Shown here: piece by piece, positions 30,231 to 41,264 of the stretch
Layout of the letters: every line of letters begins with the position of its first letter
Position numbering within the stretch: position 1 is the first letter of the stretch
Assembly: GCA_009885845.1 (NCBI GenBank)
Contig: VFJW01000017.1
Location: forward strand, 1 to 64,000
Length of the DNA: 64,000 nt
Origin: Geobacter sp.
GTDB lineage: Bacteria; Desulfobacterota; Desulfuromonadia; Geobacterales; Pseudopelobacteraceae
Direction of reading: 5' to 3'
Notes under the pieces: model-generated
What the model was told of the DNA's origin: nothing
The model's input: the letters and a program-made list of their open reading frames with translations, nothing else
The model's database searches: none
Position numbers and translations under genes: made by a program

Positions 30231-30473
30231 ATGCCGATGAAGATCCGCTTCTGCGAACATAACAAGGGCAAAGGAAAAGTTATTCGGAGACTTGAGGAAG
30301 AATTTCCTGATCTGAACATCAAGGTAAAGAGCTGTGTCAAGCAGTGCGGCGTCTGTCGGGATCAACCGGTAGCTGTTGTTGACAAAAAAAAAGTGGCCGG
30401 TAAGGACGGAGACGAATTATATGCCCGGATTGTCGAGCTGATTCGTAAGGATGCCGGGGCGGCTGATCAATAA
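30231..30473 (+). CDS. DUF1450-like small Cys-containing protein
   Basis: IRFCEHNKGKGK...VKSCVKQCGVCRDQPVAVVDKKKVAGKDGDELYARIVELI. Confidence 0.7.
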   Translation: MPMKIRFCEHNKGKGKVIRRLEEEFPDLNIKVKSCVKQCGVCRDQPVAVVDKKKVAGKDGDELYARIVELIRKDAGAADQ

Positions 30474-30498
30474 ATTTACTGGTAGGGAGGCACGTAAC

Positions 30499-30798
30499 AT
30501 GGTCAGACACACGATTCTGGTGCTATCACTGGTTATTAGTATCATTGCAGCATCATCAAATTCAGATGCCCTTCAAAATTTAGGGCCTGAGACGATTAGT
30601 CTGAAAAACGGTGTCAACCCCTTGCAATTCATGCACAGGAAACATCAGAATCTCAATAGCAGTGAATGTTTTCAGTGCCACGCGGAAGGCAAATGGAAGA
30701 TGGACAACTGGGGTAAAGAGCTTGCGCACTCGATGTGTATATCGTGCCATGACCTTAACGACAAAGGACCGGTAAAGTGTAAAGACTGTCATAAATAG
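30499..30798 (+). CDS. periplasmic triheme c-type cytochrome (c3/c7-like)
   Basis: Signal peptide plus CFQCH, CISCH, CKDCH heme motifs; FMHRKHQNL. Confidence 0.9.
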   Translation: MVRHTILVLSLVISIIAASSNSDALQNLGPETISLKNGVNPLQFMHRKHQNLNSSECFQCHAEGKWKMDNWGKELAHSMCISCHDLNDKGPVKCKDCHK

Positions 30799-30880: not shown

Positions 30881-31756
30881 ATGAATAAACTTATTACCAA
30901 AGATGATTTTGATTATAGCGTCCCTCTGCTGATCGCATTTTCCGGTTGGCTAGTTCTGCTCGGCTATCTTTACTACCGCTATGTACAGTATAATCAGGAT
31001 GTCTTTGCGCTTATTACCGCAACTGGTGACAATCAAGCTTCGCTGCAGACCCTGCTGATCTTTTTCTCGCCTCTCATCTCAGGAATATTCGGTTTTGTCG
31101 TCAACCGCAGGCTTGTACTCTACAAGAGCAAATATCTAAAAGAGCGCACCATTAAAAAACTGGCCGAAAATGAGCTCATCGAGCTGGTTGACAACCTGAT
31201 ACTGAGCTTTGTCAATGCCCTTGATGCGAAAAGTACCTGGACCAAAGGGCACTCTTTGCGTGTCAGGCACTACAGCTCTAAAATTGCACGGGAACTCAAG
31301 TTAGGCGAGGAGGAGATCGATCAGCTAAGCATCTCTGCGCTGTTACATGATATCGGCAAAATAGGCACGTACGATGACATCCTCAACAAGGTTGAATCCC
31401 TTACTGAAAAAGAGTTTGAGTTGATTAAGCTGCATCCGGCCAATGCCGTAACCATTTTATCTCCTATCAGGGAGTTTAGAGAGTTTCTGCCCATTATCAA
31501 GAGTCACCATGAGCGGATGGACGGACGGGGATATCCTGACGGGCTGGCAGGCGATGCCATCCCGTTTCTCGCCAGAGTATTATGTGTTGCCGATGCCTAT
31601 GACGCCATAACCTCAAAGCGGCCATATAAAGACCTGATGGACAGGAACGAAGGATTGCATGAGGTGCAGATTAAATCAGGAAACCAGTTTGATCCGGTTG
31701 TTGTTGCCGCCCTGGTTGCCGCCCATAAAAAGCCTGACTTTGATTTCGTCGACTAA
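30881..31756 (+). CDS. membrane HD-GYP domain protein (putative c-di-GMP phosphodiesterase)
   Basis: Two N-terminal TM segments, LLHDIGKIG, HHERMDGRGYPDGLAG. Confidence 0.92.
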   Translation: MNKLITKDDFDYSVPLLIAFSGWLVLLGYLYYRYVQYNQDVFALITATGDNQASLQTLLIFFSPLISGIFGFVVNRRLVLYKSKYLKERTIKKLAENELIELVDNLILSFVNALDAKSTWTKGHSLRVRHYSSKIARELKLGEEEIDQLSISALLHDIGKIGTYDDILNKVESLTEKEFELIKLHPANAVTILSPIREFREFLPIIKSHHERMDGRGYPDGLAGDAIPFLARVLCVADAYDAITSKRPYKDLMDRNEGLHEVQIKSGNQFDPVVVAALVAAHKKPDFDFVD

Positions 31757-31895
31757 GAGCTTGTCCGCCTGATCCGACTCCGGATTATTGCACGTTTCAT
31801 CTTTTCCGATAATTTCCTTTTTTTCCTCGTGGACTGGACAATTCCCAATATGCGGTTATTATTGGTGGAAACCGCATGCAGGGGGGAATGTAATC

Positions 31896-32192
31896 ATGAG
31901 GAAAAATGTATGTCTGATGGTAGCGTTGACAGTTTTTCTTGTGGCGGCATCAATAAATTCGGATGCGCAGGATCCGGGACCCGACTCCATACTTCTTAAG
32001 AACGGTTCGACACCGTTACCGTTCACGCACAGGAAACATCAGAATCTGCAGAGCAGTGAATGCTTTCATTGCCACGCGGCAAACAAGTGGAAAATTGACG
32101 ATTGGGGCAAAGAGGTGGCGCATGCCATGTGCATATCGTGTCATGACTTGAATGAAAAGGGTCCGATTACGTGCAAGGACTGCCATAAATAA
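31896..32192 (+). CDS. periplasmic triheme c-type cytochrome, paralog of 30499..30798
   Basis: Signal peptide; CFHCH, CISCH, CKDCH; PLPFTHRKHQNLQSSECFHCHAANKWKIDDWGKEVAHAMCISCHDLNEKGPITCKDCHK. Confidence 0.9.
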   Translation: MRKNVCLMVALTVFLVAASINSDAQDPGPDSILLKNGSTPLPFTHRKHQNLQSSECFHCHAANKWKIDDWGKEVAHAMCISCHDLNEKGPITCKDCHK

Positions 32193-32358: not shown

Positions 32359-32664
32359 ATGAATCGGTACTGCAAAGCCCTGAAAGAATCACAGATTGCC
32401 TACAAGACGCCGTACAGTACACGGCATAGCCTCTGCGCCTGGGCGCTCACAATCGGGATTAATCCGATGAAATTGGTAAACCTGATGGGGCATTCAAGCA
32501 AGCAGATGGTGTATCAAGTGTATGGTGATTACGTGGAAGATCTGGAAGATGATATGGATGAAATTGTTCGTTATTTTGGTGTGGATTTTCTCATAAAACC
32601 GGGCAAAAAAGTGTCAAAATTACTGTTTTATGGGGACAGTTTGGGGTCAGTAGGCACTTTTTAA
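32359..32664 (+). pseudogene. C-terminal fragment of a tyrosine integrase
   Basis: PYSTRHSLCAWALTIGINPMKLVNLMGHSSKQMVYQVYGDYVEDLEDDMDEI is a diverged homologue of the C-terminus of the intact integrase at 39746..41113. In-frame TGA shortly upstream of the ATG; N-terminal part missing. Confidence 0.85.
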
Positions 32665-32694: not shown

Positions 32695-32718
32695 ATGGAG
32701 CGGGAAACGAGATTCGAA
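32695..32718. repeat. attL-like direct repeat (24 bp copy of tRNA-Gly 3' end)
   Basis: atggagcgggaaacgagattcgaa, identical to 41189-41212 in tRNA-Gly(CCC). Confidence 0.9.
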
Positions 32719-33005
32719 GGCGGCCTAGTAAGTCTGCAATTAATAACATTATCAAATACTTAGCTACAAATACTCACCTTCCAAAGTCCAGTAAAATCCA
32801 CTTAAATCTACCTCAATATAACGGATTAGTGAAAGTCTGGTGAAAGCTTCATGCTCTTGCTGGCTCCACGGCACGGACAAATCCGGGTACTGGCGTTGAA
32901 GAATTATTTCTATAATAATAAAACTGGATTCAAAACACGACAAGGATATTTATATAAAACATTAGATAAACAGTAATATAAAAATCAGACAATGGTGGGG
33001 ATAGT

Positions 33006-33608
33006 TTAACGTTCGATCTCTTCATGAAATCGGCAGAAATGAACCGATAACTTAAGTAAGAAAAGATAAAAGCCAACTTGGCTCAGAGTAAATTGCTTCT
33101 CTCTTGTTTTAGGCTCAAAAACTTTGAAAGGCATAGTGTGTACATCATCTAACAAAGCCACATAATCCTCTTCTAGCTTCCCCCCTTTTGGTAAAAAAAA
33201 CATATTACTGGTTTGTTGGACGCGGATAGATTGAAGCCGACTATCAATTTTTTGCTGAAGGAAACCTTTTGATACTAACATTTCAGCGTATTTGCTCAGC
33301 TTTATTATTGGGGCAAAAGATATCTTGGGAGGGAGGTCACGCTTATTTTCAACGCTAATATCACAACTATTAGAAAGAATAATACCTTTAATCTCTTTAC
33401 GATCTCCGTCTTCAAATCTGATAACTTCTAATTTTGACCAGCCATCACCCTGTAAAATATCTGTCGGATAAAGATCAATATAATAATCGAAAAAATTAGG
33501 AAAACTCTTAAGAGCTTGTACGAGGTTCTCTTTCGATTTTTGAGTCAAATAATACGGTATCTGGGTTCCGATGGATTCAACAGAGATTTCCATATCAAAT
33601 CCCATCAA
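33006..33608 (-). CDS. hypothetical protein (200 aa) with KGIILSNSCDIS motif
   Basis: Protein-like ORF; 4-bp overlap with the upstream ORF. Confidence 0.75.
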   Translation of the reverse strand: MMGFDMEISVESIGTQIPYYLTQKSKENLVQALKSFPNFFDYYIDLYPTDILQGDGWSKLEVIRFEDGDRKEIKGIILSNSCDISVENKRDLPPKISFAPIIKLSKYAEMLVSKGFLQQKIDSRLQSIRVQQTSNMFFLPKGGKLEEDYVALLDDVHTMPFKVFEPKTREKQFTLSQVGFYLFLLKLSVHFCRFHEEIER

Positions 33609-33958
33609 CTTTCATACAGCTCCCAAAGATTCTCATTTAAAACTGTTTCAAATTCAGGTTCAAGCCGTTCCTGATGAGTTAGCAGTCTTTCATATAAATT
33701 AGACATTTCGCCAACAAAGGGATCAATGTCGGACATATATTCACCTGAATAGATATTTCTATATTGGTCAAAAGTAGAAGGGCTAGCTAACGTATGATAT
33801 GTGGAACAATTAATGTTAGTTGGATTTACATTGTTGACTGGTGGCAACTGAACGCATGCATATAAGGCTGTCGCAATAAGGCTTGCAGTTAAATAACCTA
33901 CGGTTTGGGATGAGTCTTTTATTAGGTAGTTATTCATAGATTGGCTCCAGTGCAGCAA
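33605..33958 (-). CDS. hypothetical protein (117 aa)
   Basis: Translationally coupled between two ORFs in a compact operon; start possibly MNNYLIKDSS. Confidence 0.65.
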   Translation of the reverse strand: MLHWSQSMNNYLIKDSSQTVGYLTASLIATALYACVQLPPVNNVNPTNINCSTYHTLASPSTFDQYRNIYSGEYMSDIDPFVGEMSNLYERLLTHQERLEPEFETVLNENLWELYES

Positions 33959-34685
33959 TAGTTTCTGGTTTCAAGCAATCGAAAAATAACTTTACGTTTA
34001 TATCATGCAAGATGCTTAAAGATTTTGAAAGCCCTTTCAAGATATTTTTCATGTCTAAGTCTTTTACATTAACTATAGAGTCAATATCTATTATAAGTCC
34101 TTCTTTCTTTGTAGCGTTAAATGGTTTAAATTCAGCATTAGAGACAATTTGCACCACATTAATAATATCTTTTTTAGGTATCTCAACCCTTATTTGAAAT
34201 GTTTCTCCTCTTAAAGTATGTTCTCCTACAGTAAGACTTAAATTAACTAGAGAAGCTTTATCAGTCATACTTTTTGAAGGGATCAGGTCAACATATTTAA
34301 GTCCATACCTATTAACTGATGAAACAATTTTAGCAGTCTCAAGGTGTTTCATTGCAACTAATATTGCAGCTTTAAATGCTGTCCATCCAGGATATGGCAT
34401 TTTACACGCTACGGCCAAACTACGATCACTTATTAAATAGACAAAATTACCACATTCAATGCGTGTAAGAGGGGCAAATCGAAGGTTAGGGTCTGCAGAC
34501 CTTAGTTGTTCTGGTAATTGCGCTGCTGGTAGTTTCTCAATGTTTTTTGCACCAGATAGTTTGTTAAACAGAATGCCAGGTAGAATACTGGAGGCCGGAA
34601 GAACGCTAGTAAATCGAAGCTCAAAAACAGTATCAATTAGTGGCTCTTTTTTGAGTTTTTTGGGCATAGGCATTTTCATAGTCAT
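33930..34685 (-). CDS. TIGR04255-like family protein
   Basis: LKKEPLIDTVFELRFTS N-terminus and VNRYGLKYVDLIP motif fit this family as I know it. Confidence 0.7.
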   Translation of the reverse strand: MTMKMPMPKKLKKEPLIDTVFELRFTSVLPASSILPGILFNKLSGAKNIEKLPAAQLPEQLRSADPNLRFAPLTRIECGNFVYLISDRSLAVACKMPYPGWTAFKAAILVAMKHLETAKIVSSVNRYGLKYVDLIPSKSMTDKASLVNLSLTVGEHTLRGETFQIRVEIPKKDIINVVQIVSNAEFKPFNATKKEGLIIDIDSIVNVKDLDMKNILKGLSKSLSILHDINVKLFFDCLKPETIAALEPIYE

Positions 34686-34870
34686 AATCTCCAGCTAAAT
34701 ATAATAGAGGCACTATTCCAAAACGTCAATCTCTTACTGCAAAAGATATAACTGCCAGCTACAGTTCAGAGAACCTCCCCCGTTTTAGTAACACGTGGGC
34801 TTGAAAATACATCCTTCCAATATCACATGGTCAATCGGCATGCAATGTTGATCCACCATCGGCGTCCAAA

Positions 34871-36076
34871 TTAGCCCTGCACTTCTGACGTTTCTCCCTT
34901 ATTTTCTCGTTTTTTTTTGAAATTTTCATCATCCTGGCAATACGTCAAAGCATCGAATATAATTTCAGATAACCGCATAATGCTTTCCGGTTTGTCGAGT
35001 ATGATGCTACCGCTTGGGCCAAACTCAAGCCCTCGTCTTTTAATTCCTGCCTTATGCTGCTCCGTAAGTTCAATGGGGAAATATACTAAGGTTTTTTTTC
35101 TATCGCCATAGTAGCTAACAAGCCAGCGGTTTGTCTTGCCTTGAAAAAGCACGTTGTAATAGCTTTCGGTATCCTTGCCAATAATTTCATCCGCGTTTAT
35201 GACGCCGCTCAACATTTCTTTAACGATCGCCAGGATCTTCCGTTCGGCTGCTGTTGATACAATTTTGGGGTTAGTGGGATCTACTGAGTCGCCCGTTTCA
35301 AGGATTTCTTCTGTAGCAACTGGTTGGCTTGCCGCAGTTGCTGGGGTAAGTGTAAGAACAGGGTGTGGTGTTGATAACCCGCTTACGACCATTTCACTGA
35401 TAGCATCTTTCAAGGATTGTTTGACCAGCGGAGTAAAGGTTTCAAGAACTTTGGCGGTAAGTTTCAAGCTGGGAATAGCCCTGTTGGCAATGAATCGCAC
35501 AAACTCCGGATCGACCTCACGCAAACAGGTTCCAATGGTGCTAGTGAAAAGATCAAGATTATTGCGTTCTATCGCAAAGGACTTAAGCTTGTCAGGATTA
35601 AACATATCATAACGAAATTTGGCGAGTTGCTCTATATCAGTGTCATCCAGTTTATCAAAATTGACTGTAAGAAATGGTGTGGTGTCCATGACGTTGGGTA
35701 GTTTGAGATCAGTGAAAAATCGCCATTCAACTCCGTTGGTTATGGCTGCGACGGTGACGCTTGGAATGGAATTGAAGTAACGGGACAGCTGTCCATCATG
35801 GTTAGTGAGTTTATTGTTGTAGGGCTTGGCTTCGATGAACATAACTGGGCTGCCACCTGAAAAGAGAGCATAGTCTACACGCTCGCTAGCTTTTGCTCCT
35901 GGGAAATTGGCACCATATTCGGCTTTGACTTTTTGGGGATCGAAGGGGTTGAAGTCGAGGATGTTAAGCAATGGCAGTATCAATGCCTGCTTTGTGGTCT
36001 CCTCAGTTGTGCAATGGTTCCCGACATTCTTGATGTGTTCAACATGCTCCAACACCTTCTTCTTGAATTCTTCCAT
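34871..36076 (-). CDS. solo type I restriction R N-terminal-domain-like protein (HSDR_N type PD-(D/E)XK nuclease)
   Basis: ERVDYALFSGGSPVMFIEAKPYN (D...ExK) and GVEWRFFTDL; no helicase motifs. Confidence 0.78.
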   Translation of the reverse strand: MEEFKKKVLEHVEHIKNVGNHCTTEETTKQALILPLLNILDFNPFDPQKVKAEYGANFPGAKASERVDYALFSGGSPVMFIEAKPYNNKLTNHDGQLSRYFNSIPSVTVAAITNGVEWRFFTDLKLPNVMDTTPFLTVNFDKLDDTDIEQLAKFRYDMFNPDKLKSFAIERNNLDLFTSTIGTCLREVDPEFVRFIANRAIPSLKLTAKVLETFTPLVKQSLKDAISEMVVSGLSTPHPVLTLTPATAASQPVATEEILETGDSVDPTNPKIVSTAAERKILAIVKEMLSGVINADEIIGKDTESYYNVLFQGKTNRWLVSYYGDRKKTLVYFPIELTEQHKAGIKRRGLEFGPSGSIILDKPESIMRLSEIIFDALTYCQDDENFKKKRENKGETSEVQG

Positions 36077-39683: not shown

Positions 39684-39745
39684 ATAATGAAACGGTTGTG
39701 CTATGGTGAAAACCGGACTTTGGAAGGTGGGTATTTTGTAGCGGA

Positions 39746-41113
39746 ATGGAGACTACTACCATGAAGCAATTACCCCACCTTGATGCATTGCTCTTTGACA
39801 ACGAGGAGAAAAAACAAGGCTGCATCCTCAGGAAAGCAGGCTCACGCAAGCTGTATATCCTCTTTTACTACTTCAACAAGCGAGTAGAGAAAACCACCGG
39901 CCTCAATGATACCGTAAAGAACCGAGAAAAGGTGCGGCTCTGGCTGGATCGCATCATTGAACGCCGTGACGTTGGCAAATTGATCTTTGCCGATGCCTTC
40001 CCAGGATCATCAGACAATGAGAAGGCTTACTTTGCCAAGTTGGAAGGGTGGCAGTTTGCACCGGAACCGAGGGATATACTTTTTGCTTCCTATGTTGAGG
40101 AATGGCTCAAGACCGTTTGGACACTTCAACCAGAGGGAACCTGGAAGAATGATTCCAGGCTGATTATAACCGGCTGGCTGTTACCACACTTCAAGGACAT
40201 GACCTTCTTCCAGATCAGCGGTGTGGAAATTCAGAAATTCCTTGCCAGCCTGAAATGGAGAACCGGAGCAAGAAAAGGGCAACCTCTTTCAAAGATACGG
40301 ATGAAGAATATCCTTATCCCGTTGCGATCCATCTGGAACGATGCCTGTGATCAATTCCGCTGGACATTGCACAATCCCTTCAGCAACCTGAAGAAACACT
40401 TTCCCAAGACTCGGGCAAAGAGAAGAGAAGGTTTCAGGTTCGATGAGTGGCTGGACTTTCACAAACACATCGATCCCTGGTATCAACCGATAGCTGAATT
40501 GATGATCCTAACCGGCATGATTAATTCTGAAGTGGCCGGATTGAGAAAAAGTGATATTCAGCCGGATTATATCATGGTGCAACACACCATCGTCAGAGGG
40601 GTAGAACATGACACCCCAAAGACATTTTACCGGATCAGAAAGATTCCAATCACCCAGGCCATCAGAAAACGGCTTGATATCCTCCTGGCACGAAGCACCG
40701 GTGACAAGCTGGTTACTACCAGGCGTGGCATGATCTTCCGCCCCGCCACCTTCCTGAAGGATATTTGGACAAAGGCTGCCAAAGCAAGCGGCATTATCGG
40801 TAAAGTTCCCTATTCAATGCGCCACAGTTTTGCCGCCTGGTCGCTTACCCTGCGGATTGATCCAAATCGACTTGTACGGCTCATGGGACATGGCACAAAG
40901 AAAATGATCTATGAGGTCTACGGGGATTACATCGAAGGGCTTGAAGAGGATTTCTGGCTTATTCTGGAATACTACGGCAGGGACTTCGCACAACCAAAAA
41001 TGAAACAATCAGCAACAATGATTGAGTACCAAAACGGCTTCACCTATCCGCCCTCAATTCCGCTGCATCCGTTCAATTTTCCCCAACAAAACGAAGCCCC
41101 GAGCTACCACTAA
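39746..41113 (+). CDS. tyrosine recombinase / phage-type integrase
   Basis: TGMINSEVAGLRKSDI, PYSMRHSFAAWSLTLRIDPNRLVRLMGHGTKKMIYEVYGDY (R..H-xx-R, Tyr). Confidence 0.95.
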   Translation: METTTMKQLPHLDALLFDNEEKKQGCILRKAGSRKLYILFYYFNKRVEKTTGLNDTVKNREKVRLWLDRIIERRDVGKLIFADAFPGSSDNEKAYFAKLEGWQFAPEPRDILFASYVEEWLKTVWTLQPEGTWKNDSRLIITGWLLPHFKDMTFFQISGVEIQKFLASLKWRTGARKGQPLSKIRMKNILIPLRSIWNDACDQFRWTLHNPFSNLKKHFPKTRAKRREGFRFDEWLDFHKHIDPWYQPIAELMILTGMINSEVAGLRKSDIQPDYIMVQHTIVRGVEHDTPKTFYRIRKIPITQAIRKRLDILLARSTGDKLVTTRRGMIFRPATFLKDIWTKAAKASGIIGKVPYSMRHSFAAWSLTLRIDPNRLVRLMGHGTKKMIYEVYGDYIEGLEEDFWLILEYYGRDFAQPKMKQSATMIEYQNGFTYPPSIPLHPFNFPQQNEAPSYH

Positions 41114-41189
41114 AAACCATTTTTTGTGATAGTTTTTGTGATAGTCGGGGCATTTCGCCATGAATCATAAATGATTCTATGTAGTTATA

Positions 41190-41264
41190 TGGAGCGGGAA
41201 ACGAGATTCGAACTCGCGACCTCAACCTTGGGAAGGTTGCACTCTACCACTGAGTTATTCCCGC
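41190..41264 (-). tRNA. tRNA-Gly(CCC), CCA encoded
   Basis: gcgggaataactcagtggtagagtgcaaccttcccaaggttgaggtcgcgagttcgaatctcgtttcccgctcca; anticodon loop TTCCCAA. Confidence 0.97.

Follow-up and report, generated by a model that had tools for sequence, protein, structure and literature searches.

Do three closely packed genes at one end of a small integrative element form a single functional module, and what might such a module do? They had been noticed in a preliminary description of the window, i.e. the whole stretch of 64,000 nt that was analysed. The genes are intact open reading frames on the minus strand (33006-34685) and form one tight operon, in the following arrangement:

34701..34729, minus strand: promoter-like TTGACG-17-TATTAT with 10 of 12 consensus matches, ending 15 nt upstream of the gene 1 start (promoter-like sites are no more frequent in the region than expected by chance).
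33930..34685, minus strand: gene 1, TIGR04255 family protein of 251 aa, start ATG 34685.
33605..33937, minus strand: gene 2, 110 aa, start most likely ATG 33937, stop 33605.
33006..33593, minus strand: gene 3, 195 aa, start most likely ATG 33593 (ATG 33605 possible).

With these starts, gene 2 overlaps the stop of gene 1 by 8 nt (ATG 33937), and gene 3 begins 11 nt downstream of the end of gene 2 (ATG 33593 and 33605, respectively). The three minus-strand reading frames of the preliminary description were thus retained, but their lengths and overlaps were not: gene 2 most likely starts at ATG 33937 and not at 33958, the longer overlaps having arisen because upstream TTG codons were taken as starts. 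We prefer the shorter starts because of the family alignments, in which gene 3 of the relatives begins at the same place as the window gene from ATG 33593, and because the gene 1/gene 2 overlap of -8 recurs in relatives.

Searches of Pfam, NCBIfam and PADLOC with the three proteins gave TIGR04255 for gene 1 as the sole match. Its score of 118.9 bits (cut-off 30) over model positions 1-251 of 252 turns what had been described as a resemblance into a clear family assignment. The HMMs of PADLOC-DB 2.0.0 gave no match for genes 1-3 up to an E value of 1, in agreement with the earlier view that the operon corresponds to no described system, and sequence searches of the PDB with single proteins and profiles returned nothing significant. 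All three proteins match unannotated phage families, i.e. phrog_5464 (gene 1, E 2e-59), phrog_5728 (gene 2, E 1e-5) and phrog_4575 (gene 3, E 3e-62).

An 8.5-kb element is inserted at a tRNA-Gly gene, and the operon lies within it, immediately next to the distal att site. The relevant features are:

32695..32718, minus strand: distal att site adjoining the operon, a stretch of 24 bp identical to the tRNA-Gly 3' end.
41189..41212, minus strand: att site at the tRNA-Gly end, a 24-bp exact repeat at the tRNA-Gly gene (41190-41264).
39746..41113, plus strand: tyrosine integrase of the element (Arm-DNA-bind_2 and Phage_integrase), adjoining the tRNA-Gly gene.
34871-36076: orphan HSDR_N endonuclease upstream of the operon (phrog_4225, E 1e-125).

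No copy of the 24-bp att repeat is expected by chance, and the att repeats and the tyrosine integrase bear out the earlier placement of the genes at the distal end of an integrative element. The preliminary description had also counted the neighbouring solo nuclease in favour of an anti-phage function. No helicase or methylase partners were found near the HSDR_N gene, and every other fetched locus with the trio lacks it; it is therefore a neighbour and not a part of the module.

Additional features of the region were observed. Outside the distal att site, positions 32359-32664 encode a C-terminal fragment of a tyrosine integrase that resembles the C-terminus of the intact integrase of the element, which suggests the remnant of an older related insertion at the same tRNA. 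A 25-nt inverted repeat with 92% complementarity (32768-32792 and 39712-39736) flanks most of the element; its 22-nt core is present at these two places only, with none expected by chance, and its right copy (39712-39736) immediately precedes the integrase gene, so that the repeats are possibly arm sites of the integrase. Farther away, two similar small cytochrome c7-like genes (30451-30798 and 31788-32192) lie on either side of an HD-domain gene (30881-31756), apparently after a local duplication.

Genome and viral contigs were scanned with a four-sequence gene 3 alignment, which yielded 95 loci. When the window, phage and plasmid loci are included, 89 of about 100 loci contain all three genes, once each, in the same order and on the same strand, and neighbouring genes have short overlaps; some of the viral-contig loci are near-copies of one another, and the non-redundant set has n=67. 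Such a recurrence of the trio in one fixed order shows that the operon is not just a chance arrangement, and the gene-neighbourhood check supports the one functional module that had been proposed. The hosts, as labelled in the records, belong to the Pseudomonadota, Desulfobacterota, Bacteroidota, Verrucomicrobiota, Fibrobacterota, Campylobacterota, Cloacimonadota and Ignavibacteria. Relatives of gene 3 were found in none of the 38 other genomes of the window's own genus and order, and the cassette is therefore sporadic.

Outside the window, the trio is found in the P2-like Pseudomonas phage Dobby (next to the portal gene, with the integrase gene on its other side), behind the CI repressor of phage VW-6S, and on a plasmid of Phocaeicola (Bacteroidota). 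In E. coli, 92 of 5,426 complete genomes (about 1.7%) contain the module with at least 99% identity to one viral-contig copy (L065). In the one record examined, NZ_CP028578.2 (L246:16001-17728), it is located in a lambdoid prophage, where it occupies the interval from antiterminator Q to the lysis genes and is read from the opposite strand. In the E. coli records listed, the three genes are annotated as no more than one member of the TIGR04255 family and two hypothetical proteins. The proteins of the E. coli prophage version are WP_000907077, WP_125282403 and WP_000069422. A tblastn search of phages with gene 2, a query that is short or divergent, gave no match. The flanks of 27 chromosomal loci contain integrases and a few restriction-modification and reverse transcriptase genes, and no dense defence islands. 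The view of the operon as mobile-element cargo, which the preliminary description had put forward, extends from the integrative element to phages, prophages and a plasmid.

TIGR04255 is present in 76 of the 1,235 genomes searched (four phyla; three of the phylum samples each include one genome picked for carrying the trio), and in 9 of the 10 genomes with gene 3 matches. Among the TIGR04255 loci whose downstream sequence extends for 900 nt or more, a second gene follows within 25 nt in 70 of 79 cases, in 63 with a third gene as well, and 9 of the 79 have no tight second gene. The starts of the second genes are found at -4 in 28 cases and at -8 in 11 cases.

The third genes are diverse. Gene-3-like third genes aside, Pfam searches with the remaining 52 gave PemK_toxin (6), PIN (4), HEPN (2), HicA (1), PIN_3 (1) and DUF7689 (3) and nothing else; many third genes have no Pfam match, and similarity clustering of the third genes resulted in 18 groups, several without an identified family. 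On a gene 1 tree, the type of the third gene is clustered, yet the 12 types require 19 changes, compared with a minimum of 11 and a mean of 38.8 after shuffling; the count is rough because the tree is a quick one with several long branches. The 19 changes indicate that third genes have been exchanged.

Several groups of third genes deserve mention on their own. LSVTRH/NHANI-like proteins without a Pfam match (L114, L115, L116, L118, L140, L143, L153, L156, L164, L166 and L171) are a candidate new toxin family, and DUF7689, found in the toxin position behind TIGR04255 at L106, L109 and L121, is a candidate toxin domain. The third genes of L133, L146, L149 and L155 have a QG...(S/T)xxC pattern that recalls gene 3, and some of the second genes at these loci contain a helix-turn-helix-like region.

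The AlphaFold2 model of gene 1 (pLDDT 94.6) consists of two beta-alpha-beta repeats and is weakly TBP-like, with TM-scores near 0.3; in a viral structure library the best match was unnamed and the others were TBP-like. Homology to SecB was considered and rejected, since hhalign against a 30-sequence SecB profile gave a P value of 0.17 and SecB was absent from the best 50 structure matches.

For gene 3, the AlphaFold2 model (pLDDT 88) was informative. Foldseek retrieved 36 PDB matches at E<1e-3, all of them MazF-family chains (best 1.3e-5), with TM-scores by target length of about 0.7. Alignment with a 31-sequence PemK profile by hhalign gave a global score of 25.1, compared with a maximum of 9.1 for 100 column-shuffled profiles, and placed LQGD opposite kRGD, IILSN opposite LVISN, and ALLDDVHTMP opposite the corresponding PemK strand. 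Two motifs stand out:

33444..33452, minus strand: QGD motif, gene 3 residues 48-50, opposite the (K/R)GD of MazF/PemK; Q48 and D50 invariant (n=63).
33360..33380, minus strand: ILSNSCD motif, gene 3 residues 72-78, opposite the PemK LVISN strand; S74, N75, C77 and D78 invariant (n=63).

The invariant set of gene 3 comprises P13, L16, Q48, D50, S74, N75, C77, D78, N83, P135, S183, R188 and R195. The ILSNSCDIS motif pointed out earlier corresponds to residues 72-80. The preliminary description had found nothing else recognisable in the second and third proteins (117 and 200 aa by its starts); this still holds for Pfam and NCBIfam, but no longer for gene 3 at the level of structure, where Foldseek points to a MazF fold.

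The Pfam PemK model (PF02452) matches neither gene 3 nor any of 64 relatives. MazF enzymes have a catalytic pair, a conserved Arg and a conserved Thr (R25 and T48 in B. subtilis). These residues are not conserved at the aligned positions of gene 3, in a region in which the alignment is remote; e.g. position 69 is K in 17, R in 17, P in 13, N in 6 and Q in 5 of the relatives (n=63). Catalysis is unproven because the Arg/Thr positions vary and the Pfam PemK model is missed. Taken together, the fold match, the Pfam miss and the variable catalytic pair characterise gene 3 as a protein with a predicted MazF/PemK fold that is a probable toxin with a putative RNA target, outside PF02452.

Gene 2 appears to be composed of two parts:

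33845..33901, minus strand: hydrophobic N-terminal segment, gene 2 residues 13-31, the putative gene-1-dependent part and a possible counterpart of the chaperone-addiction segment of TAC (toxin-antitoxin-chaperone) systems.
33608..33664, minus strand: acidic tail LEPEFETVLNENLWELYES, gene 2 residues 92-110, the best conserved and putative toxin-binding part.

In this subfamily, the N-terminal half is charge-poor and has the hydrophobic peak (median KD13 1.93 versus 0.92 for the C-terminal half, P 2e-13), a feature that is not clear across all second genes (P 0.15). A natural swap is seen on comparison of two loci, L105 and L107. Their gene 1 proteins are 84% identical, and the DNA similarity extends into gene 2 but ends after about 75-80 codons; past this junction, what is left of gene 2 is wholly different, as is the third gene, which encodes a QGDIF/TQDCD protein in one and PemK in the other. 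The reverse is found at PemK loci with an unrelated gene 1 (normalised similarity 0.09), where the C-terminal half of gene 2 reaches 0.49 and the N-terminal half 0.07. PIN loci likewise have a common C-terminal half and different N-terminal halves with an unrelated gene 1. A profile search also detected the PemK-type C-terminal motif on other N-termini beside PemK genes without TIGR04255 (L249 and L251).

Within the gene-3 subfamily, similarity at the C-terminal end of gene 2 follows gene 3 (partial rank r 0.46 given gene 1) and not gene 1 (0.06 given gene 3). The N-terminal end has a weak link to gene 1 (partial r 0.11) compared with -0.01 for gene 3. The C-termini of the PIN and PemK antitoxins had no matches in plasmids or, as single sequences, in genomes, and the profile of the PIN antitoxin C-terminus retrieved only its own source locus. 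We infer that gene 2 is a chimeric antitoxin, with a C-terminal half that goes with the toxin and an N-terminal half that goes with gene 1; the latter link depends mainly on one swap, that of L105 with L107/L108.

What could be the function of a conserved first protein that is combined with exchangeable toxins? In TAC systems, a SecB-like chaperone protects an antitoxin bearing an addiction segment, and this segment is transferable from one toxin family to another (PMC5105189, PMC6377645). The segment that marks a TAC antitoxin is the ChAD extension, which makes the antitoxin dependent on the chaperone and is C-terminal; gene 2 has a gene-1-linked segment at its N-terminus. Sequence and model comparisons support the operon, its conservation, the exchange of toxin classes, a chimeric antitoxin and the fold of the toxin, and we regard a tripartite architecture of toxin, antitoxin and partner as likely. 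Gene 3 would be the toxin of MazF/PemK fold, presumably directed against RNA. Gene 2 would be the antitoxin, binding the toxin with its C-terminal half and relying on gene 1 for its N-terminal half, and gene 1 would be a dedicated partner that takes the place of SecB and keeps the antitoxin folded and stable. In the resting state, gene 1 would shield gene 2, and gene 2 would hold gene 3 back. If an infecting phage or a stress were to titrate away or eliminate gene 1, or if the cell lost the element, gene 2 would fail and gene 3 would halt growth. What we infer from the data is the toxicity, the RNA target, direct binding, a phage trigger and the function of gene 1 as a chaperone or sensor. A chaperone role of gene 1, which is drawn by analogy with TAC, has about an even chance of being correct.

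The TBP-like fold makes a different role of gene 1 a serious rival, namely that it is the transcriptional regulator of the operon and docks on the N-terminal half of gene 2, with genes 2 and 3 still acting as antitoxin and toxin. The N-terminus of the antitoxin is often a DNA-binding domain in two-gene TA systems, and in paaR-paaA-parE the DNA binding is supplied by a separate protein, PaaR. In line with such a role, the gene-1-linked part of gene 2 stands in for the N-terminus of PemK antitoxins without TIGR04255, and gene 1 of the window is basic (pI 9.3). However, most TIGR04255 proteins are acidic, with a median pI of 5.75 and a net charge of -5, the structural similarity of gene 1 to TATA-binding-protein repeats is low, and the hydrophobic, charge-poor N-terminal half of gene 2 in this subfamily would better suit a chaperone client. 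We therefore consider a regulator unlikely. A lack of any joint function, i.e. decayed or structural phage genes, is highly improbable: all three genes do match unannotated phage families, but they are intact, have invariant motifs, retain their order across several phyla, and gene 1 is repeatedly paired with known toxin families. That the genes do not co-occur elsewhere or are decayed phage genes, which the preliminary description had named as the outcome that would speak against it, is ruled out by the conservation data.

The remaining alternatives concern the selected function and leave the tripartite architecture in place. Gene 1 could mainly be an infection sensor, a special case of the tripartite explanation in which a phage protein binds gene 1, the toxin is freed and defence is the main selected function. 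CmdTAC provides a precedent, in which competition for the CmdC chaperone by the capsid protein of a phage frees the toxin (PMC11618068). Relatives of the trio occupy positions typical of exclusion genes, i.e. the portal-proximal region of a P2-like phage, a site next to CI, and the interval between Q and lysis genes; in P2-like phages, a defence hotspot has been described close to cos and adjoining the portal gene (PMC9122126). An anti-phage role is thus plausible from the phage and prophage positions of the relatives. Maintenance TA modules can, however, occupy the same positions, the PADLOC models have no match, and the surroundings of the 27 chromosomal loci are not dense defence islands, so that a predominant sensor function is a tentative reading. 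A pure addiction module, which prevents loss of the element or prophage and has no defence role, would be compatible with the TA architecture and with the location close to one end of an integrative element, on a Bacteroidota plasmid and in prophages. Addiction does not conflict with the retention of a third component with exchangeable toxins in so many contexts, but alone leaves it unexplained, and we regard a pure addiction module as rather unlikely.

In its widest form, the tripartite explanation states that TIGR04255 represents a second class of TA chaperone-sensors, structurally unrelated to SecB, that serves many exchangeable toxins (MazF-fold, PemK, PIN, HEPN, HicA-like and several that would be new) via chimeric antitoxins, and that at least the phage-borne members sense infection. 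We put the chance of this generalisation slightly below even. The trio appears, on the basis of sequence, to be a variant of tripartite TA systems with a common partner that had not been recognised before. The full-text literature searched, which covers few subscription journals, preprints and supplements, contained no paper with TIGR04255 or the E. coli and phage protein accessions tried; TIGR04255 is an orphan family, for which this search found no stated function. If the proposal is correct, TIGR04255 gains a testable role as the constant part of many three-gene TA operons, the TAC principle of a partner-dependent antitoxin has arisen with a non-SecB protein, and third genes such as DUF7689 and the LSVTRH/NHANI family are flagged as candidate toxins. 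The near-identical module in E. coli makes the proposal testable at once in laboratory strains, and the natural swap within gene 2 (L105 versus L107) is a direct design for determining which half binds which partner.

How does the operon compare with known systems? Relatives of the trio are found in accessory positions of P2-like phages and prophages comparable to those of the P2/P4 hotspot systems old-tin and gop-beta-cII (PMC9122126), which consist of other proteins; the trio has no sequence match to the PADLOC models. With MazEF/PemIK (PF02452), gene 3 shares the predicted fold and the aligned GD and (L/I)SN...N motifs, and true PemK toxins are the third genes of some TIGR04255 operons. In contrast to the PF02452 proteins, gene 3 is nearly double in length, is missed by the Pfam model, lacks the conserved catalytic pair and has invariant residues of its own (Q48, D50, S74, N75, C77, D78, N83, S183, R188 and R195). 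Panacea (DUF4065; PMC8832971) also combines one conserved component with many toxins, but its shared part is a domain of the antitoxin. In the TIGR04255 operons, the constant component is a third protein in its own right, and the antitoxin varies at its C-terminus with the toxin. The operon also has parallels to the TAC systems (HigBA, HicAB or MqsRA with a SecB-like protein; the anti-phage CmdTAC). Both are three-gene operons in which several toxin families, including HicA-like toxins, are combined with one type of third component, and in both the antitoxin has an extra segment beyond its toxin-binding part. They differ in that the third component here is TIGR04255, without detectable similarity to SecB, that the extra segment of the antitoxin is N-terminal instead of C-terminal, that the toxins include PemK, PIN, HEPN and the MazF-fold family, and that gene 1, the putative partner, is the first gene of the operon.
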